Below, in pieces: positions 3,506-33,554 of a DNA stretch of 37,046 bases. Every line of letters starts with the position of its first letter. Positions within the stretch are counted from its first letter, which is position 1. The notes beneath the pieces are model-generated. The model was not told where the DNA came from. It saw only the letters and a program-made list of their open reading frames with translations, and did not search any database. The stretch is from a virus, in IMG/VR virus record IMGVR_UViG_3300000128_000008, positions 1 through 37,046 of that record; one strand, written 5' to 3'. The position numbers were made by a program, and so were the translations under genes.

Positions 3506-4144
3506 ATGGTCTTATCTCAAAAACAAATAAAGAATGTTCAGGAATATTGTCGGTTAAATGATATTAAAGATATTGATGACTTTATAATACGATGTTTTAC
3601 TGAAGGGTATAACATTAAAAAATATGGGTTGTTAGGTGTTAATAATGAGCCACAAATTATTGAGAAGGAGGTTGAAAAAATTGTTGAGGTCGTTAAAGAA
3701 GTTGAAGTCCCTGTTGAAAAGATAATTGAAGTAGTTAAAGAAGTTCCCGGTCCAATAAGGGAAATTGAGGTTATTAAATATGTTGATAGGGACGTAGTTA
3801 GAGAGATAAAAGTGGAAGTCCCTATTAAAGAAGTTGTCCCAAATATCGACAATAATTGGGACAAACTTAAAAATGAACATTTAATAAACATCGACAAATT
3901 AAATAATGACTTTAAAAAAGAACGAGAAGAATTTATTGAAAAGTTGAATAATTGTGAAAAAACAACTACATTTGATTCCGAGGGTAAACAGAAACAACTT
4001 CAAGATACTTTGAACAAGTTAAGAAGGGAATTGTCTGAAAAAAATAATAAAATAAATAAATTAGAAAAAACAATTGAAGAATCTGAAACAAATAGTAAAC
4101 CGGTAGGTGCTGTTTATATGAAAGGTTCTAATTTAAATAATTAA
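3506..4144 (+). CDS. Repeat and coiled-coil protein between gp47 and gp46
   Basis: 212 residues. N-terminal 45 residues look like a small helical domain (ending in VNNEPQ). Residues about 50-115 form degenerate repeats of the type VEVPVEKIIEVVKEV, very like the long VEVIKE repeat of the membrane protein at 8952. The C-terminal third is a charged coiled coil (KLNNCEKTTTF, ELSEKNNKINKLEKTIEE). No catalytic motif. Its place directly after gp47 and before gp46 suggests a structural or scaffolding partner, but that is inference. Unrecognised family. Confidence 0.65.
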   Translation: MVLSQKQIKNVQEYCRLNDIKDIDDFIIRCFTEGYNIKKYGLLGVNNEPQIIEKEVEKIVEVVKEVEVPVEKIIEVVKEVPGPIREIEVIKYVDRDVVREIKVEVPIKEVVPNIDNNWDKLKNEHLINIDKLNNDFKKEREEFIEKLNNCEKTTTFDSEGKQKQLQDTLNKLRRELSEKNNKINKLEKTIEESETNSKPVGAVYMKGSNLNN

Positions 4145-8640: not shown

Positions 8641-8952
8641 ATGGGAAAAGTAAACAAATTTTTTACAAATCACGGTTCTAAAGTGATTGTAGGGCTCTTA
8701 GTTTTAATTTATTTTAAATCTTGTGGGGTTGACAACGAATTAAATAGAGTTAAGGATAACGTCATTCAACTTCAATTAGATATTGATTCGGTTAATGTTA
8801 ATGTTGGTAACTTACCTACCGACACCGATATTGAGATTGAGGGGTTAAAGGCGGAAAAAAGAATGATTCAAGCAACAGATAGAAAAATATTTGATGTTAA
8901 TCGTCAAAATCAAATTGAGACACAAATAAAAGTTTTAGAAAAAAATAAGTAA
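8641..8952 (+). CDS. Small single-span membrane protein with coiled coil (103 aa)
   Basis: One short transmembrane segment at about 15-27 (VIVGLLVLIYF) followed by Cys-Gly, then a charged heptad-like helix to the end. N-in, C-out topology would place the coiled coil in the periplasm. It is the first gene after a terminator and overlaps the next gene by one base (TAATG). It could belong to the lysis or envelope-interaction block; no family recognised. Confidence 0.6.
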   Translation: MGKVNKFFTNHGSKVIVGLLVLIYFKSCGVDNELNRVKDNVIQLQLDIDSVNVNVGNLPTDTDIEIEGLKAEKRMIQATDRKIFDVNRQNQIETQIKVLEKNK

Positions 8953-9887
8953 TGGGTAATATATGGAAATGGGTAAAAGAAAACCCTAATAGGTTTATGT
9001 TTTTAATACCAATTATTTTAGTTGGTGTAATTTCTATATCTCATGTTGTTTCTTGGTATGAGTTAACTAATCCCCTTAGTTGGGCAATATATTTATCTAT
9101 CGCGATTGAAATTGGCGCTATGACCGCTTTAATTGCGACTACTAATAGAATTAAAGGTGGTGTGTGGTTTATGTTTGGTTTAGTGACTTTAATACAAATG
9201 ATTGGTAATATATTTTACTCTTATAAAGAAATTGATACTGATGGGGAATTATTTAAATCTTGGGTTGAGTTGACATTACCTATATGGGAATCTATTGGTA
9301 CGGAGGCCGATGATATTGTTGGATTAAAAAGATGGTTGGCGTTTTTAACTGGTGGTTTATTACCTGTAATATCTCTAACTTCTTTACATTTTTTCATTAA
9401 TTATCAAAAAGAAGATGAGGTTAAGTATGAAAAAATTGAAGATGAAACATTAGTAAACCATAAGGTTGATGAGGTAGAAGAATCTATGTATAATTCTATG
9501 GTAGAACACCCTAAAGAAGAAATTAAAGAAGTAGAAATACCTATTGAGGTGATTAAAGAAGTTGAAGTAATTAAAGAAGTTGAAGTAATTAAAGAAATTG
9601 AAGTAATTAAAGAAGTTGAAGTACCTATTGAAGTCATTAAAGAAGTGGAAGTAATTAAAGAAGTGGAAATAATTAAAGAAGTGGAAGTACCTATTGAAGT
9701 CATTAAAGAGGTTGAAGTCATTAAAGAGGTTGAAGTCATTAAAGAGGTTGAAGTCATTAAAGAGGTTGAAGTACCTATTGAAGTAATTAAAGAAGTTGAA
9801 GTAATTAAAGAAGTGGGGGATATTACTCAAGAAACTACAACTACAACAATTCCGGGTGGTAAGGTTTTGGAATATAAAAAGTTTTAA
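8952..9887 (+). CDS. Four-helix membrane protein with VEVIKE repeat tail
   Basis: 311 residues. Four hydrophobic segments at about 14-34, 40-60, 70-88 and 120-143. From residue ~190 to ~288 the protein is almost only repeats of VEVIKE, broken at four or five points by VEVPIEVIKE, followed by a Thr-rich GGKVLEY tail. The repeat is alternating hydrophobic and charged and would form an extended rod or coiled coil. The DNA repeats are near-identical 18-mers, so copy number may vary between strains. A similar but more diverged repeat is in the protein at 3506. It precedes the amidase; a membrane anchor or envelope-spanning role is possible, function unknown. Confidence 0.65.
   Translation: MGNIWKWVKENPNRFMFLIPIILVGVISISHVVSWYELTNPLSWAIYLSIAIEIGAMTALIATTNRIKGGVWFMFGLVTLIQMIGNIFYSYKEIDTDGELFKSWVELTLPIWESIGTEADDIVGLKRWLAFLTGGLLPVISLTSLHFFINYQKEDEVKYEKIEDETLVNHKVDEVEESMYNSMVEHPKEEIKEVEIPIEVIKEVEVIKEVEVIKEIEVIKEVEVPIEVIKEVEVIKEVEIIKEVEVPIEVIKEVEVIKEVEVIKEVEVIKEVEVPIEVIKEVEVIKEVGDITQETTTTTIPGGKVLEYKKF
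9529..9816 (+). repeat. In-frame tandem repeat, 18-base unit (VEVIKE coding)
   Basis: About sixteen copies of an 18-base unit such as GAAGTAATTAAAGAAGTT, with several 30-base variants encoding the extra PIEV. Neighbouring copies share synonymous sites (GAAGTCATTAAAGAGGTT occurs in a block near 9715-9765), which suggests recent duplication. Confidence 0.85.
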
Positions 9888-9896
9888 TTTTTTTAA

Positions 9897-10493
9897 ATGT
9901 TAGATTTTATTGAACATGATGGTTTTAATTTTATTAATGCTGATGAGGTTAAAAATAAAATTGTTTTAACCCACACATCAAGAAATTTATCTGACTACTT
10001 AATTTCCTTAAAAAATAGAAAATACGGTCAAAACTATAAAATACCGCATTATATTATAGGTAGAGAAGGTTTAATACATAAATTAGTTGATGAAAGAAAT
10101 ACAACTAATTATTTATCAAATTTAGAGTTAAATAAAGAATCTGTAGTGGTTTCTTTAGAAAATTTAGGGTGGTTAGAGAAAGAACCTTTAAAAAAACATT
10201 ACCTTAACTGGATTGGTGATATTTATAAAGGTGACGTGTTTGAGAAAAAATGGAGAGACAGATATTATTGGGAACCTTATAAGGAGAAACAAATATTTTC
10301 ATTACTTAAGGTTTTAAATTATTTAACCGAAAAAATGAACATTCAATTTAATGTTGTTGAACACAACACTTTGATTAAAGAAATAAATAAATATAAAGGT
10401 GTGGTTACGAGAAGTAATTTTAGTGATAAGTTTACTGACCTCAACCCCTCTTTTAACTTTGAAAGAATTTTAAAAAAAATAGAAAATGAGTAA
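9897..10493 (+). CDS. N-acetylmuramoyl-L-alanine amidase-like endolysin (Amidase_2, divergent)
   Basis: 198 residues resembling the Amidase_2/T7-lysozyme fold, which cleaves the lactyl-amide bond of peptidoglycan. Visible: LTHTS with H26 (first zinc His), PHYIIGREGLIHKLVDE with H51, VVVSLENLGWL in the place of the 'IgIElvn' strand, and KFTDLNPSF near residue 180 matching KTDPGP, whose Asp/Cys is a zinc ligand. The His normally 8-10 residues before that Asp is not seen (VTRSNFSD there), so activity may be altered. Neighbouring membrane and spanin-like genes support a lysis role. It overlaps the next gene by 8 bases. Confidence 0.7.
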   Translation: MLDFIEHDGFNFINADEVKNKIVLTHTSRNLSDYLISLKNRKYGQNYKIPHYIIGREGLIHKLVDERNTTNYLSNLELNKESVVVSLENLGWLEKEPLKKHYLNWIGDIYKGDVFEKKWRDRYYWEPYKEKQIFSLLKVLNYLTEKMNIQFNVVEHNTLIKEINKYKGVVTRSNFSDKFTDLNPSFNFERILKKIENE

Positions 10494-12698: not shown

Positions 12699-13925
12699 AT
12701 GAAAAAGACAAATAATACATATATTAACAACCTATTCAATAAAATATTGAGTGAGAGTTTAGATGAAAAGGTCGATGAGATAGTGAATAAAATCAATGGT
12801 GAAAACGTTGATGAAGTAATGAATACCCCAATCTCTGAAGGTTCTGAAACGTGTGAAGGTTGTGGTTCCGAAATGACTGAAGGGTCAAGTGGTCTTTGTG
12901 AACAATGTGGTTCTAAAATGGACGAAGGTGTTTATGAAGAATTTAACGAAGAATACGATGAGTTAAAATGTGACTACCATAAGGAAAACTTCGGGGAGGA
13001 AGATGAAAGAACAATTCGTTTTTGTAATAGTAAATCTGAAACAACTGAATCTTTGACTAAGGGCCAAAAGAAATTAGATAAAAATAAAAACGGTAAAATT
13101 GATTCTGAAGATTTTAGTATGATGAGAAATAAAAAGAAAGAATCGAAAGAAAGTAAAGACTATAGAAGTAAATTCGATGGTAGAAAATCGAGAGTTATAG
13201 GTGTCGATTCTGATATTGATGACCAAAGAATGGAGGAGTCTAAAAAAAGTACATTAAAACTTACTGAAAGTGAATTGATTTCATTAATTGAAAATATTGT
13301 AAAAGAAAATAAAAAAGGTTCAAACATTAAACAAGGTAAATCCGCAGGACAAAGTGAATATAACACAATTCATAAGGAGTCTGGTAAAGAAAATGAGGAT
13401 TATATTAAAGATGTTACTAAAAAGATGCAAGACTACCTAAAAAACGGTTCTAAAGGGGATTATTCTATGGACCCAAAAATGTTTCCTCAGGGTAATGGTG
13501 AGATAGCTAAGATGGAAAAAATGGCTTACGTACCATCTGAGGATGTACGTGATTATATTGAGGCGTTTACAGGTGCAGGGATGGAGAACTTGGATTATGA
13601 TGAAATTAAACCTAATGAAGAGTGGGTTGAGAAAAATATTGTTGGTTCATCTGAAACAGGTAATAATCCTGAATGGGCAAACGCTGTTGAGACACCGGTT
13701 AATAAAAGACGTAATAAAATTAGGAAAGATAATTTATTAGCTAAGGCTAAGAGAAAGGCTTATAATAAAGCTGAACAACCTGTAGTACAAGATAAAACAG
13801 GTGAAGGTAAAGTTGATAAGATAATGAATCAATTAGAATCTACTACATCTAAATCTAAAGATAAATTAAATGAGGAGTTTGGTAAAATGAAGGATTTAAT
13901 ATCTTACAATAGAAAGACTCAATAA
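12699..13925 (+). CDS. Multi-module acidic protein: N-terminal tag, zinc knuckles, EF-hand-like loop (408 aa)
   Basis: Residues 1-20 (MKKTNNTYINNLFNKILSE) resemble the N-terminal tag of other TATTTAT genes. Residues about 47-75 have two CxxC knuckles (CEGCGSEM, CEQCGSKM). Residues about 123-140 contain LDKNKNGKIDSEDF, a dockerin/EF-hand calcium loop with D1, N3, N5, G6, I8, D9 and D12. A motif TLKLTESELISLIENIVKE lies near 185-203. The rest is polar and probably disordered. This composition fits a head-core, scaffold or packaged protein of a large phage. No enzyme motif. Confidence 0.55.
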   Translation: MKKTNNTYINNLFNKILSESLDEKVDEIVNKINGENVDEVMNTPISEGSETCEGCGSEMTEGSSGLCEQCGSKMDEGVYEEFNEEYDELKCDYHKENFGEEDERTIRFCNSKSETTESLTKGQKKLDKNKNGKIDSEDFSMMRNKKKESKESKDYRSKFDGRKSRVIGVDSDIDDQRMEESKKSTLKLTESELISLIENIVKENKKGSNIKQGKSAGQSEYNTIHKESGKENEDYIKDVTKKMQDYLKNGSKGDYSMDPKMFPQGNGEIAKMEKMAYVPSEDVRDYIEAFTGAGMENLDYDEIKPNEEWVEKNIVGSSETGNNPEWANAVETPVNKRRNKIRKDNLLAKAKRKAYNKAEQPVVQDKTGEGKVDKIMNQLESTTSKSKDKLNEEFGKMKDLISYNRKTQ

Positions 13926-29119: not shown

Positions 29120-29966
29120 AAGTCAAAAAATAATTACGGGTGATTGTGTTGATGTTATGAAGACATTACCTGATGGGTGTATTGATTTGTTAGTAACATC
29201 ACCACCGTACTCGGTTAATATAAAATATGACGTGTATGATGATTCAATCTCGATGGAAGATTATTGGGAGTTTACTAAAAATTGGTTATCGGAATCTTTT
29301 AGAGTTCTTAAAGATGATGGGAGGGTTGCTATCAACGTTCCTATCGAAACTAATGTACAGGAAAGAGGGGGTAGAATTTTATTCAACGCAGAATTTTGGA
29401 TGAGGATGAAAGAAGTTGGGTTTCAGTTCTTTGGGATGGTAGACCTAATTGAGGATTCCCCACATAGAGTTAGACAAACGGCGTGGGGTAGTTGGATGAG
29501 TGCGAGTAGTCCTTATATATATAACCCAAAAGAGTGTGTCATTTTAGCGTATAAGAAAAGTAAAAAGAAACTCAAAAAAGGTACGTCCCAATGGGAAGGT
29601 GAACTAACTAAAGTTGAGAAAGAAGATGGGACTTTTAAAAATAAGATGATATATAAGCCTGAGGATAAAAAAGACTTTATGAATTTAGTTTTTGGTAGGT
29701 GGGAATACTTTCCGGATACTAGGTCATTAACTAAAGCAACGTTTTCAATGGATATACCAAGTAAGGCGATTAGGATTCTTTCATATAAGGATGACTTAGT
29801 TTTAGACCCCTTTATGGGTAGTGGTACATCCGCGGTGGCCGCTGAGACATTGGGTAGAAGATGGTTGGGGATTGAAATAAGTGATAATTATACTAAAATA
29901 GCGAATGAAAGAATAAAGGTTTTTAGGGAGGAACAATTACAAATAAAGTTAGAATTTAAAGAATAG
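29112..29966 (+). CDS. DNA methyltransferase, beta class (N4-cytosine or N6-adenine)
   Basis: Motif IV TSPPY at 29-33 comes before motif I DPFMGSGT at about 232, the beta-class order. LGIEI follows as in the family. The central target-recognition region is about 100-200. SPPY (rather than DPPY) is more usual in N4-cytosine enzymes but is also seen in N6-adenine enzymes such as beta-class ones. No nuclease partner is present, so it probably protects phage DNA or overlaps a host modification. It ends at a terminator. Confidence 0.85.
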   Translation: MIESQKIITGDCVDVMKTLPDGCIDLLVTSPPYSVNIKYDVYDDSISMEDYWEFTKNWLSESFRVLKDDGRVAINVPIETNVQERGGRILFNAEFWMRMKEVGFQFFGMVDLIEDSPHRVRQTAWGSWMSASSPYIYNPKECVILAYKKSKKKLKKGTSQWEGELTKVEKEDGTFKNKMIYKPEDKKDFMNLVFGRWEYFPDTRSLTKATFSMDIPSKAIRILSYKDDLVLDPFMGSGTSAVAAETLGRRWLGIEISDNYTKIANERIKVFREEQLQIKLEFKE

Positions 29967-29988
29967 GGTTGATTACCCTATTTTTTTT
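29962..29988 (+). terminator. Rho-independent terminator after the methyltransferase gene
   Basis: AATAGGGT / ACCCTATT (29962-29969 with 29975-29982), 5-base loop, T run. The start of the stem overlaps the stop codon. Confidence 0.85.
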
Positions 29989-29999
29989 GTTTTATATGG

Positions 30000-30012
30000 T
30001 ATTTATAATAAA
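30000..30012 (+). promoter_or_regulatory. TATTTATAATAAA element, putative phage promoter
   Basis: Third exact 13-mer copy. Starts 20 bases before the ATG at 30020 and follows a terminator, as expected of an independent promoter. Confidence 0.55.
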
Positions 30013-30019
30013 ACAAAAA

Positions 30020-31132
30020 ATGGAAATAATTTTAACTGAAAAACAATATGTCCATATACAAAATAATATTGATGTAGAAAAAACTAAAAAACACTTAACC
30101 GAGAAATGGGAAAACTTTAACGAAGAAGAAAAAAGTTTTATAGTTGAGATGATAAAAGTCATGAACCCTAATCAAGTTAAGACATTAAATGAGTCTTGGT
30201 GGAATACTATTGGTGATGTCATTGGGATATTTGACCCAACAGGTTTGGTTGATTTATTTAACGGACTTGATTATATGAGACAAGGGGATTACTTCTTTGG
30301 TATGTTGTCTATGGTTTCGGTAGTACCTTATGTTGGTGATGCGGTTGCTAAACCAATTATGTTTGGTAGTAAAGCTAGTAAAGGTTTTAAAGCGGCTAAT
30401 TCAGCTATGAAAATGGTTAAAAAAACCGGTGATGTTGCTGAGGGTAGTAAACTTTTATCTTCGGCGGCTAAGACTTCTCCTGCTATGAGTAAATTCGTAA
30501 ATACGTCTATTAGTTGGGGAGGTAAATTAAAATCACTTATTAATAAGATACCAGGTGGTAAAATGACGTCAGGATTTAGAAAAACACTCACTGATTGGAT
30601 TGATATGTTTACTATGGCTGCTAGAAATCAAAAGGTGTCCGGTAAAATCATGGGTAAATATGCTAAAAAATTAGGTAAGACTGACCCTAAATTAGCTAAA
30701 GAGTTAATGGGTCAGATGAAGAAAGAATTGTCGGGTAAAAATAAATTCTTTAAGAATTTTAAAGCTAATGACCCGACGTGGATGGCTAAGAATGTATGGC
30801 CCGGATTTTCCGTGAAGTTAATTAGGAATAGAGATTTAACTAGTTTAATGAGAAGAACTAAGTTTTATGCCGGATTATTAGATTATTTAGGTGTTGCTAA
30901 TTTTGTTGGTCCAGATGAGTTGGTAAAAGAAATGGGTAATAAAGCTTTTGATAGTTCTATGTCGGCATACGCGACTACACCTGAGGGTGAAAAGTATTGG
31001 TCGGAAGATATGTCAGGTGTAGGAGGTGAACAACAACAAATGAATAATACTCCACAACCACCACAGTCTCAAGTTAAAACTAAGGCTAAAGGATTCGCAA
31101 CAGATTTCATAAAAGATATAATAGGATTTTAA
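30020..31132 (+). CDS. Tagged protein with hydrophobic Gly/Ala-rich domain (370 aa)
   Basis: Start set at ATG 30020; the upstream in-frame TTG at 29969 lies in the terminator and before the promoter element. N-terminal tag MEIILTEKQYVHIQNNIDVE. Residues about 60-125 read WWNTIGDVIGIFDPTGLVDL, then YMRQGDYFFGMLSMVSVVPY and VGDAVAKPIMFGSKASKGFK. This looks like hydrophobic pre-toxin or membrane-active modules of polymorphic toxins. The rest is basic and helical and ends in a Pro/Gln linker. A virion protein that is ejected and acts on membranes is possible; function unproven. Confidence 0.55.
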   Translation: MEIILTEKQYVHIQNNIDVEKTKKHLTEKWENFNEEEKSFIVEMIKVMNPNQVKTLNESWWNTIGDVIGIFDPTGLVDLFNGLDYMRQGDYFFGMLSMVSVVPYVGDAVAKPIMFGSKASKGFKAANSAMKMVKKTGDVAEGSKLLSSAAKTSPAMSKFVNTSISWGGKLKSLINKIPGGKMTSGFRKTLTDWIDMFTMAARNQKVSGKIMGKYAKKLGKTDPKLAKELMGQMKKELSGKNKFFKNFKANDPTWMAKNVWPGFSVKLIRNRDLTSLMRRTKFYAGLLDYLGVANFVGPDELVKEMGNKAFDSSMSAYATTPEGEKYWSEDMSGVGGEQQQMNNTPQPPQSQVKTKAKGFATDFIKDIIGF

Positions 31133-31136
31133 AAAA

Positions 31137-33554
31137 ATGAGTTTAATTAACGAAGGTGGGGTAAGAGATATAAATAAATTATCCAAAAGATACGATAAAG
31201 CTAAAATTTATTTTCATCAAGACCTTGATGGGGTAACTACGGCTTTAGCTATGAAAAATTACTTAGAGGACAATGGTATTGAAGTTGTGGATTCTGAGAT
31301 AATACAATATGGGGATAAGGAATTCGCTATTAAAAAATCGGATGCTGAAGGAAATGTAATGCCTGTGTTAGTTGATTTTGCACATGGAAAACCAATGTTT
31401 ATAATACATACTGACCATCACGATAGTCAGGCTGGTGCTGATGAAACGGGGGCCACATCATTTAGACAATCCCGTTCAAATGTTGAGACAATATCTCAAG
31501 TATTGTCACCTAAAGACATATTTCCTAACGAAGATATTAAATTAATTTCAACTGTTGATTCTGCGGATTATTCAAGAAACGAGATTGATGTTGATAAAGT
31601 GATTAACTATTTATTCAAAATAGATACTGACTTACCGGTATTCAAAAATAAAATGTTATTAGGGTTAGTGATTAACAAATTATTATTGGCCTTTAAAAAC
31701 AAACCCGGTTTCTTGGAGGAGTTAGTTATGAACTCGACACCATCGCTTATGAATATTCTACAGAATATTAAAAGAATAATGAAGGAGAAGAATTTTCCTG
31801 ATGTTGATATATTACAAAGAAACGCCGATGACTATGTAAAACAAATGAAGACAAGTCCAAATGTAAAAGTTGACGACGGTATTATTGTTCAGTATGGTGG
31901 CGGAAGTATGTTTAAACCGGGTTCTTATGATAGATATACCCCATTTAAAAATAATCCTGATGCGGACTTTATCGTTATTGCTTGGCCATTAGGGTTAGTT
32001 CAAGCGTCTTGTAACCCATTTAAAAAAGAACGTGAACTTAAAGGTGTTAATTTAGGGGAATTGGCTCAAGAAGTTTTATCTAGGTGGGAGTCTCAGTTGA
32101 AAGAAAAAGAAATACCGTTATCGACAATTAAGTGGGTATCTGAATCCGGAAAAGGATTTGGACCTGAATCGGTAGGATTTACATTTAAAGATTTTGTTGC
32201 TTTATATGGTAAAAATTATAAAGATAAACAAGATGGTAGAGAAGATTTGTTAAACATTGGAGAAATGATGGAAACACCATTTGAAGACCTATCTGAAGAA
32301 GATAGAGATTACTTGGATGATATATCAGTAAATGCTTGGGATTTCATTCAAGCGGGTAGTGGGGGACATAAATGTATAACAAATATTGCCGGATTAAATT
32401 ATATGGGTAAGGGTACCAGACCACCTAAGGGTAAATACAAGTATAATAAAGATTCAGGTGACGCCCCATACATTAAATTTACTAAAATGATTCAACAAGA
32501 ATTCGTTAAAAAGTTAAGAGAAAAAATTAATGATTCGAAAGATATTCAGGAATCGTATGTAAAACAAATATTTAAATTAAAAGAATCTAAAAAAGCCGAA
32601 ATTATAAAATCTGACAGTAAAGAATTTATTGATAATTTAGAGAAAATTGATGGTGAAATTAGACAATCTGATAGTAAAACAATGACATTTAAAAAAAAAG
32701 TTGAGACATTTCAAGTCGCTTTAGAGTTGTTAGGTTATAATCTTATTCAGCATGGTGTTGACGGTTTATTTGGCCCTGAAACAGGTGAGGCTCTTAACAA
32801 ATTTAAAAAAGAAAATGGTGTTGAGTTAAGTAATAGTGGTACTTCGACTTTTGATGGTAAAACAAAAGAAGTTATGGTTGAAAAAATTAAAGATTTAAAT
32901 ATAACTGATGAAGATATTAAAAAATATATAATGCCTTCTAAAGAGTTTACATCATTAGACGGTAAAATAACTCATAAGTATAGTGGGAAAGCAGCTCAAA
33001 ACATCCAACGATTAGTTGATAAAATGATAGAGTACGGAGTTACTGATGTTGCATCTCAAATAGGTATGTTAGCGGTGATAGGTAAAGAGACTCATTTTAT
33101 AAATAAAAAAGAAAAAGGTTACCAAGGAACGTCTAACAGTAGAATAAGAAAAATATTTTCGAGGGCTAGAAAATTATCTGACGATAAACTAAATAATTTA
33201 AAGAAAAATTACGATGAGTTCTTTAACTTTGTATATAATGGTAGGATAGGTAATGACAATAATAATGATGGTTCTAAATATATTGGTAGAGGATTTAACC
33301 AATTAACGGGTAAATCTAACTATAAGAAGTATGGAAGTCAGGTTGGTATGGATTTGGTGAGTAATCCTGAAGTTATGTTAGATGATGACGTTGCCGCTGA
33401 AGTGGCGGTTAAGTTTTTAACTAAAAAGGGTTTACGTAATTTTTCAGACCCTAACGAAGCTACAATATATTATGCGGATATTAATTCCGGTAGCCCAAAA
33501 AAACGAGCTAGAGAAAATTCAATGAAAGAACTACAGAAATTTGATATTGCTTAA
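31137..33554 (+). CDS. DHH phosphoesterase fused to peptidoglycan-binding and GH19 lysozyme/chitinase domains (805 aa)
   Basis: One uninterrupted frame. N-terminal DHH domain: YFHQDLDGVTTALAMK (H27, D29, D31), HTDHHDSQ (D93-H94-H95), STVDSADYSRN, and a later GSGGHKCITNIAG (H411) like the DHHA1 GGGH motif; this is the RecJ/NrnA type of nuclease or phosphoesterase. Residues about 517-585 form a PG_binding_1 domain (VETFQVALELLGYN, GVDGLFGPETGEALNKFKKE). Residues about 618-805 form a GH19 domain: QIGMLAVIGKETHF (E651), KKEKGY (E659), YIGRGFNQLTGKSNYKKYGS and NPEVMLDDD. Similar DHH proteins usually stand alone in phages. No signal peptide. Confidence 0.85.
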   Translation: MSLINEGGVRDINKLSKRYDKAKIYFHQDLDGVTTALAMKNYLEDNGIEVVDSEIIQYGDKEFAIKKSDAEGNVMPVLVDFAHGKPMFIIHTDHHDSQAGADETGATSFRQSRSNVETISQVLSPKDIFPNEDIKLISTVDSADYSRNEIDVDKVINYLFKIDTDLPVFKNKMLLGLVINKLLLAFKNKPGFLEELVMNSTPSLMNILQNIKRIMKEKNFPDVDILQRNADDYVKQMKTSPNVKVDDGIIVQYGGGSMFKPGSYDRYTPFKNNPDADFIVIAWPLGLVQASCNPFKKERELKGVNLGELAQEVLSRWESQLKEKEIPLSTIKWVSESGKGFGPESVGFTFKDFVALYGKNYKDKQDGREDLLNIGEMMETPFEDLSEEDRDYLDDISVNAWDFIQAGSGGHKCITNIAGLNYMGKGTRPPKGKYKYNKDSGDAPYIKFTKMIQQEFVKKLREKINDSKDIQESYVKQIFKLKESKKAEIIKSDSKEFIDNLEKIDGEIRQSDSKTMTFKKKVETFQVALELLGYNLIQHGVDGLFGPETGEALNKFKKENGVELSNSGTSTFDGKTKEVMVEKIKDLNITDEDIKKYIMPSKEFTSLDGKITHKYSGKAAQNIQRLVDKMIEYGVTDVASQIGMLAVIGKETHFINKKEKGYQGTSNSRIRKIFSRARKLSDDKLNNLKKNYDEFFNFVYNGRIGNDNNNDGSKYIGRGFNQLTGKSNYKKYGSQVGMDLVSNPEVMLDDDVAAEVAVKFLTKKGLRNFSDPNEATIYYADINSGSPKKRARENSMKELQKFDIA

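Follow-up and report, generated by a model that had tools for sequence, protein, structure and literature searches.

The heads of phage T4 pack small proteins, Alt, and test enzymes. We know of no established case of a wall hydrolase packed in a T4-type head. The motif of the T4 protease gp21 is L/I-X-E, and the propeptides are capsid-targeting sequences, which can bring foreign enzymes into heads and from there into cells (PMC9026906). Amongst the DHH enzymes, Bacteroides fragilis NrN degrades SAM-AMP, and its closest reported fold match is PggH (PMC10600005). A passage of a jumbo-phage survey proposes a role for phage DHH enzymes against nucleotide-based immunity (PMC7824862).

Here we describe a phage gene that joins a DHH phosphoesterase to wall-hydrolase domains behind a leader resembling the T4 capsid-targeting sequences. 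The gene is in a 37,046-nt stretch of viral DNA (IMG/VR record IMGVR_UViG_3300000128_000008, positions 1 to 37,046), which we call the window. Its features are collected in Table 1, where, as in the text, an arrow marks a cleavage point (putative except in T4).

Table 1. Features of the DHH-GH19 gene and its upstream region, in window coordinates.
Feature	Coordinates	Strand	Basis or comment
805-aa ORF: leader, DHH-DHHA1 phosphoesterase, linker, peptidoglycan-binding domain, GH19 lysozyme	31137..33554	+	translation, Pfam, structure model and fold searches, other contigs
N-terminal leader MSLINE, L/I-x-E then GG	31137..31154	+	putative prohead-protease site E6↓G7
DHH-DHHA1 phosphoesterase domain, about residues 9-468	31161..32540	+	Foldseek to RecJ; VIA-align
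Motif I, H27-x-D29-x-D31-G	31215..31232	+	invariant in 14-homologue alignment
Motif III, D93-H94-H95	31413..31421	+	invariant in 14-homologue alignment
DHHA1 motif, G409-G410-H411	32361..32369	+	invariant in 14-homologue alignment
Linker with two [IL]-x-E↓S sites, I470-Q-E472↓S and L481-K-E483↓S	32541..32633	+	junction motif test
Peptidoglycan-binding domain, about residues 500-586	32634..32894	+	PF01471; fold match to SleB
GH19 lysozyme domain, residues 607-805	32955..33551	+	PF00182; 4ok7 alignment; fold matches
GH19 catalytic candidates E651, E659	33087-33089, 33111-33113	+	both Glu invariant among aligned GH19 rows
Upstream gene, same putative operon, unknown family	30020..31132	+	long N-terminus ending TLNE58↓SWWN
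TATTTAT element, promoter-like	30000..30006	+	20 nt upstream of ATG 30020
Terminator-like hairpin between the operon and the upstream methyltransferase gene	29958..29986	+	similar hairpins before many relatives

One reading frame with three domains

The gene is a single stop-free frame of 805 codons. A first-pass annotation of this DNA had claimed a DHH domain, a PG_binding_1 domain and a GH19 domain in this one frame; translation, Pfam and fold comparison confirm it, and the residues it had named as catalytic (H27, D29, D31, D93-H94-H95, H411, E651 and E659) are all at their positions in the translation and in the alignments. The fusion is real. Contigs of other samples in IMG/VR have a DHH domain upstream of the same GH19 module, which rules out an assembly join or a frame error.

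The wall-hydrolase part is recognised by profiles. The GH19 family (PF00182) scores 29.4 bits, above its Pfam cut-off of 25.5. This part matches the SPN1S endolysin 4ok7 in a PDB sequence search (4e-15), with E651 and E659 aligned gap-free to two glutamates of 4ok7, and in a second structural aligner the GH19 domain reaches Z of about 10-11 against GH19 endolysins. PG_binding_1 (PF01471, cut-off 23 bits) scores 22.8 bits in the whole protein and 25.1 in the C-terminal part, and the domain matches the N-terminal domain of SleB with Z 10.4. A separate lysin made from an internal start at M516 is not supported: this methionine is invariant in five GH19 rows, but the lysozyme-like variant has no methionine there and no Shine-Dalgarno sequence is evident.

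Fold and candidate substrates of the DHH domain

The DHH assignment comes from motifs and fold. PF01368 scores 18.3 bits, under the curated cut-off of 28.1, which is an annotation threshold and no defining property of the DHH superfamily. The profile thus falls short for the DHH half of the earlier claim, and the metal-ligand motifs and the fold carry it: H27, D29 and D31, D80, D93-H95, D141 and G409-H411 do not vary among 14 homologues with identities down to 42%. NCBIfam gives weak matches of the 805-aa protein to RecJ and SleB. A PDB sequence search with a DHH-weighted profile returned no convincing match, and matches came from fold comparison alone. The AlphaFold2 model of the 805-aa protein, of moderate confidence (mean pLDDT 62), matches RecJ and SPN1S GH19 endolysin structures with Foldseek probability 1.00, and its DHH region matches RecJ, NrnA and PAP-phosphatase structures, also at 1.00. 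Modelled on its own (pLDDT 67.6), the DHH part gives VIA-align Z values of 11.9 to the pGpG phosphodiesterase PggH, 9.3 to PAP phosphatase, and 8.3 to both RecJ and NrN. In the second aligner, residues 8-467 match DHH-DHHA1 phosphodiesterases, residues 500-585 the peptidoglycan-binding domain of SleB, and residues 607-805 GH19 endolysins. By modelled fold and motifs, we place the DHH part as a divergent member of the DHH-DHHA1 superfamily.

In the model, this enzyme is close in fold to enzymes for short oligonucleotides, dinucleotides or single-stranded DNA, and it may degrade a nucleotide signal or a nucleic acid. A counter-signal activity and a single-stranded DNA or RNA exonuclease activity are equally plausible to us, each with somewhat less than an even chance, and nucleotide salvage is a further possible role. 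For a phosphodiesterase of the NrN type (SAM-AMP) or for another signal, the DHH part offers a structural similarity.

A conserved phage family with exchangeable wall hydrolases

An IMG/VR scan finds 80 loci related to the DHH protein, most of which encode it alone, in about 470 aa. The extension with a peptidoglycan-binding and a GH19 domain is present in the window and in L005 and L007-L009; L008 and L009 are complete DHH-GH19 fusions, L005 is open at its 3' end, and L007 has a frame break near the N-terminus. In other relatives the extension is M23 plus peptidoglycan-binding (L054, L057-L062, L076), M23 plus two peptidoglycan-binding domains plus GH19 (L045, L050, L052, L103-L105; 1075-1080 aa), an M15-like metallopeptidase plus peptidoglycan-binding (L022, L024, L056; assigned by eye from an HxxxxxxD and HxH pattern, with no Pfam match), or peptidoglycan-binding plus a lysozyme-like domain (L010, L011; assigned by eye). 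Scanning with just the GH19 part yields seven loci. In five, DHH lies upstream in the same frame; the other two (L108, L109) begin inside the protein.

Frames are broken in a few relatives. The DHH-M23 fusion at L055:3776-6041 is frameshifted in the region after the DHH domain, by sequencing error or in reality, and L007 and L069 have in common an out-of-frame start just before motif I (EISESQNLLSSGPLTLDGVTTA), which suggests indels or a real frame break.

The first-pass annotation had called the fusion one of no described kind. We find no description of it in the literature, and no record of the INPHARED phage collection covers 80% of the 805-aa protein, so none there has the full fusion; among the INPHARED matches listed, the DHH half is found in uncultured huge phages only. 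It is, however, no one-off, and the IMG/VR relatives together with a tree rule out that it is unique to this phage. In the tree of 62 DHH sequences the label "alone" changes ten times, at least nine of them on well-supported branches, counts that are approximate because some labels come from truncated or frameshifted contigs. GH19 fusions occupy separate places: the window with L005 and L006 beside the standalone L013-L029, L008 and L009 beside the standalone L070, and the tandem forms. The fused state thus appears to have changed approximately nine times or more, with four types of wall hydrolase (GH19, M23, M15-like peptidase and lysozyme-like). The modules are homologous to each other, and these changes would therefore be exchange, gain and loss, not repeated invention. 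Judged from these comparisons, the DHH protein is a conserved phage family, mostly standalone, that repeatedly gains or loses wall hydrolases of several types.

This turnover bears on one alternative, in which the protein is a RecJ-type nuclease of DNA metabolism (replication, recombination or host DNA breakdown) and the lysin fusions are short-lived recombination accidents between neighbouring genes. RecJ is among the top structural matches, the fusion is often gained or lost, and lysozyme genes adjoin the DHH gene in many relatives. Against it, four hydrolase types are joined to one protein at one position, and the scanned GH19 modules all sit behind DHH, directly or after M23, wherever the contig is long enough to tell. 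We consider this alternative improbable.

A scan of genome_contigs for a cellular origin found no relative, a weak negative because its two peptide patterns are narrow. The nearest isolates, by the primase and by a relative's capsid protein, include Flavobacterium phages, and therefore the host of the phage is likely a member of the Bacteroidota. By primase, Flavobacterium phage immuto is closest among isolates (33% identity); it is absent from the DHH matches listed, as are all other isolates of the collection.

N-terminal leaders

Homologues with an intact start begin with a short stretch, of 6 to about 14 residues, whose last residue is a Glu shortly ahead of G-[LIVF]-[RK]; in the 14 aligned homologues E6 and G8 never vary, despite leaders of different length. 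In the main group the leaders are like MKKLIKE↓S or MSLINE↓G. The huge-phage orthologues begin with MKKYTEFVNEEVG, MKKFQSFVNEEVG or MQNYNSFINEEVG, some with Val or Thr as the P3 residue, and one such start, MKKYTEFVNEE, resembles the T4 capsid-targeting sequence MKTYQEFIAEA with which IPIII and IPII begin (NC_000866). Starts of this T4-like kind are found in 26 of 366 proteins of these huge phages and at none of their 1491 internal methionines, for a pattern chosen after looking. A distant DHH homologue (profile E 2e-13) with a leader-like start, IKEFHNFALNEEA, is found in the 735-kb uncultured phage LR756501 (L003:19893-21341).

Relatives encode a protease of the gp21 type. The 261-kb relative G002, with a standalone DHH protein, encodes an S77 protease (E 2.4e-24), clustered with the portal, an acidic scaffold-like protein and the major capsid protein, which has SFLINE60↓A where T4 gp23 has SFLTE65↓A. 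The 169-kb relative with an M23 fusion, G001, has the first part of a gp21 homologue (71% identical) where its contig ends. In Flavobacterium phage immuto the gene order is similar to this head cluster, and the capsid protein has QIVSE↓A; the sites in G002 and immuto are predicted. The window, a 37-kb fragment, contains no recognised head genes, so its prohead protease is assumed from these relatives.

The motif is short and common. In G002, [IL]-x-E[SAGN] is only about two-fold denser within the first 12 residues of proteins than in the bulk, which makes L-x-E weak taken alone. Leader swaps and the upstream element described below are stronger support. In three unrelated protein families the leader is of type A in some phages and of type B in others, both ending in [ILV]-x-E. 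Type A occurs on upstream neighbours of the DHH gene, as in MRPYRINESEKRRILNLHETATKNVYLSE↓Q, and type B of the same three families is MKKVIRLTESQLENIIRKVISE↓. A signal for targeting and processing would be expected to take this form, with exchangeable leaders that share their end.

The swap can be followed on the same mature domain in L023 and L035 versus L039, L044 and L048, in L074 versus L065, and in L056 versus L053, where type A reads RINESEKRRIL...YLSE↓Q and type B MKKVIRLTESQLE...VISE↓E. Many unrelated small proteins of G002 (L090-L102) carry leaders of the families MKKVIRLTESDL, MNLQENIQRI and MKxLIxESQ, and are a candidate ejected set. One leader-bearing protein of G002 (L093:16565-18019) is a multi-domain wall hydrolase with PHROG matches including "internal virion protein with endolysin domain". 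The window gene at 12699-13925, a candidate core or internal protein, gives zinc-ribbon-like and EF-hand-like matches that fall below cut-off, and its N-terminus contains ILSE↓S; a similar start is found in G002 (L100:4057-5355).

Domain junctions

The same kind of site recurs between the domains. The DHH domain has a conserved end, KEKIxxSK. Beyond it, each of the 12 fusion junctions examined has [ILV]-x-E within 8 residues (sites DIQE↓S, NLNE↓E, NVNE↓Q, GLNE↓Q, SLNE↓S-VINE↓S, TIKE↓N and VVKE↓D). Shuffled linkers have a mean of 2.4, and 0 of 20,000 shuffles reach 12/12, with related rows that are not independent; when one takes five representatives of four module classes, all five carry the junction motif (P 0.0003 by shuffles). 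The test was designed after the pattern was seen, and the linkers may share ancestry.

These sites and the leader bear on how the protein would be delivered. The first-pass annotation had proposed a bifunctional virion protein that opens the wall at entry and carries a nuclease into the cell, or a protein cleaved after synthesis. The leader and the junction [ILV]-x-E sites agree with delivery and with cleavage, but delivery probably runs through the head, by way of the prohead core and then ejection, and not through a tail enzyme. As an entry enzyme of the tail or baseplate, the protein would open the wall from the tail tip with its GH19 domain, the DHH part being an anchor or injected. Some tail proteins do carry GH19 domains (phrog_3201, "tail fiber protein"), and T4 gp5 is annotated as a tail lysozyme; the 805-aa protein, though, has no baseplate or tail domain that we could find, its neighbours are no recognised tail genes, and its leader resembles head-targeting sequences. 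Of the alternatives, this is to us the least probable.

Upstream gene and TATTTAT element

For the gene upstream of the fusion, the ATG at 30020 is preferred to a TTG at 29969. Against its TLNE↓SWWN, L013 and L015 have ILKE↓ARWWN at the same place, in L013 after a different N-terminus. In 62 of 75 loci the gene before DHH has a TATTTAT no more than 80 nt upstream (mostly 20-26 nt), and a terminator-like hairpin usually stands ahead of the element. In G002 it is also found before the portal gene (gp20), gp21, the scaffold-like gene and one neighbouring gene. Counted over the window and three relatives, it stands at -16 to -29 before 38 of the 130 genes that have an [ILV]-x-E leader, versus 48 of 510 others (Fisher P 6e-8), and a control motif shows no enrichment before leader-like genes in the same set. 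Most leader-like genes are without TATTTAT, and it is present before some others. The element appears to tie the leaders to a head-gene-like regulon, which may be a late one.

TATTTAT is the reverse complement of the T4 late-promoter core. It is strongly over-represented before genes: it lies within 80 nt upstream of 95 of the 340 G002 genes (6 expected), and upstream of many genes in G001 and G004. The T4 late-promoter sequence TATAAATA is not clearly enriched in the window (20 occurrences versus a chance mean of 13.4, with 4 of 100 shuffles as high).

In most relatives the neighbours upstream of DHH are leader-bearing wall hydrolases. GH24 lysozymes predominate (PF00959 E 4e-24 in one); others are SleB-like hydrolases and LysM-like proteins (LysM by eye). 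One could propose a lysis-time endolysin with a DHH passenger, which works earlier (in nucleotide salvage or DNA turnover, for instance) or is merely tolerated. GH24, M23, and GH19 with peptidoglycan-binding modules are typical of endolysins (PHROG "lysis" matches), and the frequent GH24 neighbour fits as well. Against this, both genes have leaders, a separate Amidase_2 gene of the window (9897-10493), which has no leader, could serve lysis, and most relatives have DHH with no fused lysin, so that lysis cannot depend on the fusion there. We regard a lysis endolysin as unlikely, if less so than the other two alternatives.

Elsewhere in the window, the gene at 8952-9887 has a hydrophobic N-terminal half and a long EVIKEVEV/PIEVIKEVEV repeat, with a shorter such run in 3506-4144.

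A proposed ejection protein

The reading that we favour, at about an even chance, is a head-packaged and probably processed multi-enzyme ejection protein of a T4-like phage. The two genes would be expressed as an operon from an upstream element common with head genes. The short leader, by its likeness to T4-type capsid-targeting sequences, would build the protein into the prohead core, where an S77/gp21-type prohead protease would cut after E6 and probably at E472 and/or E483, freeing inside the head a DHH phosphoesterase and a peptidoglycan-binding GH19 lysozyme. Both enzymes would be ejected with the DNA. The lysozyme would help locally with the cell wall. The DHH enzyme would work in the cytoplasm, and its phosphodiester substrate would most likely be a nucleotide immune signal or a short or single-stranded nucleic acid. 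We infer packaging, cleavage and substrate from the leader, the junctions and the fold.

A bolder generalisation, which we offer tentatively and hold to be rather doubtful, is that these genes encode head-targeted polyproteins of an immune-signal phosphodiesterase and exchangeable wall hydrolases, cut apart by the prohead protease, and that [ILV]-x-E leaders mark a large ejected arsenal. If so, a single gene would supply both wall entry and counter-defence just as infection begins, and a phosphodiesterase that could destroy defence signals would already be in the cell at the very start, ahead of phage gene expression. T4-like phages of Bacteroidota would pack enzyme combinations as polyproteins that the head protease separates, and [ILV]-x-E leaders would predict from sequence alone which unknown phage proteins get injected.

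Comparison with known systems

The closest parallel is with IPI, IPII, IPIII and Alt of T4, whose capsid-targeting sequences are processed by gp21: there too a short N-terminal leader stands near an L/I-x-E site, in T4-like phages with variable cargo and an S77 protease, which is found here in relatives. Here the cargo is a DHH phosphoesterase joined to wall hydrolases, and packaging and cleavage are putative. With internal virion or ejection proteins that have lytic domains (phrog_342, "internal virion protein with endolysin domain"), the protein would have in common a wall hydrolase possibly inside the virion, a likeness of proposed role only; the 805-aa protein does not match that family. 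RecJ, NrnA, PggH, GdpP, PAP phosphatase and B. fragilis NrN share the fold and the catalytic motifs of the DHH part, PggH being the closest fold match, but at about 10-15% identity, and the phage protein is under the Pfam DHH cut-off and has C-terminal lysin modules. The jumbo-phage DHH phosphodiesterases are also phage enzymes of the DHH superfamily with a proposed counter-defence role, and the passage of the survey that treats them describes no wall-hydrolase fusion or leader (PMC7824862). Finally, GH19 endolysins of the SPN1S type (4ok7, 8p8e, 9eoi) share the GH19 fold with the phage domain, and 4ok7 also has both candidate catalytic glutamates; they stand alone, whereas here the GH19 domain is the C-terminus of a DHH protein.
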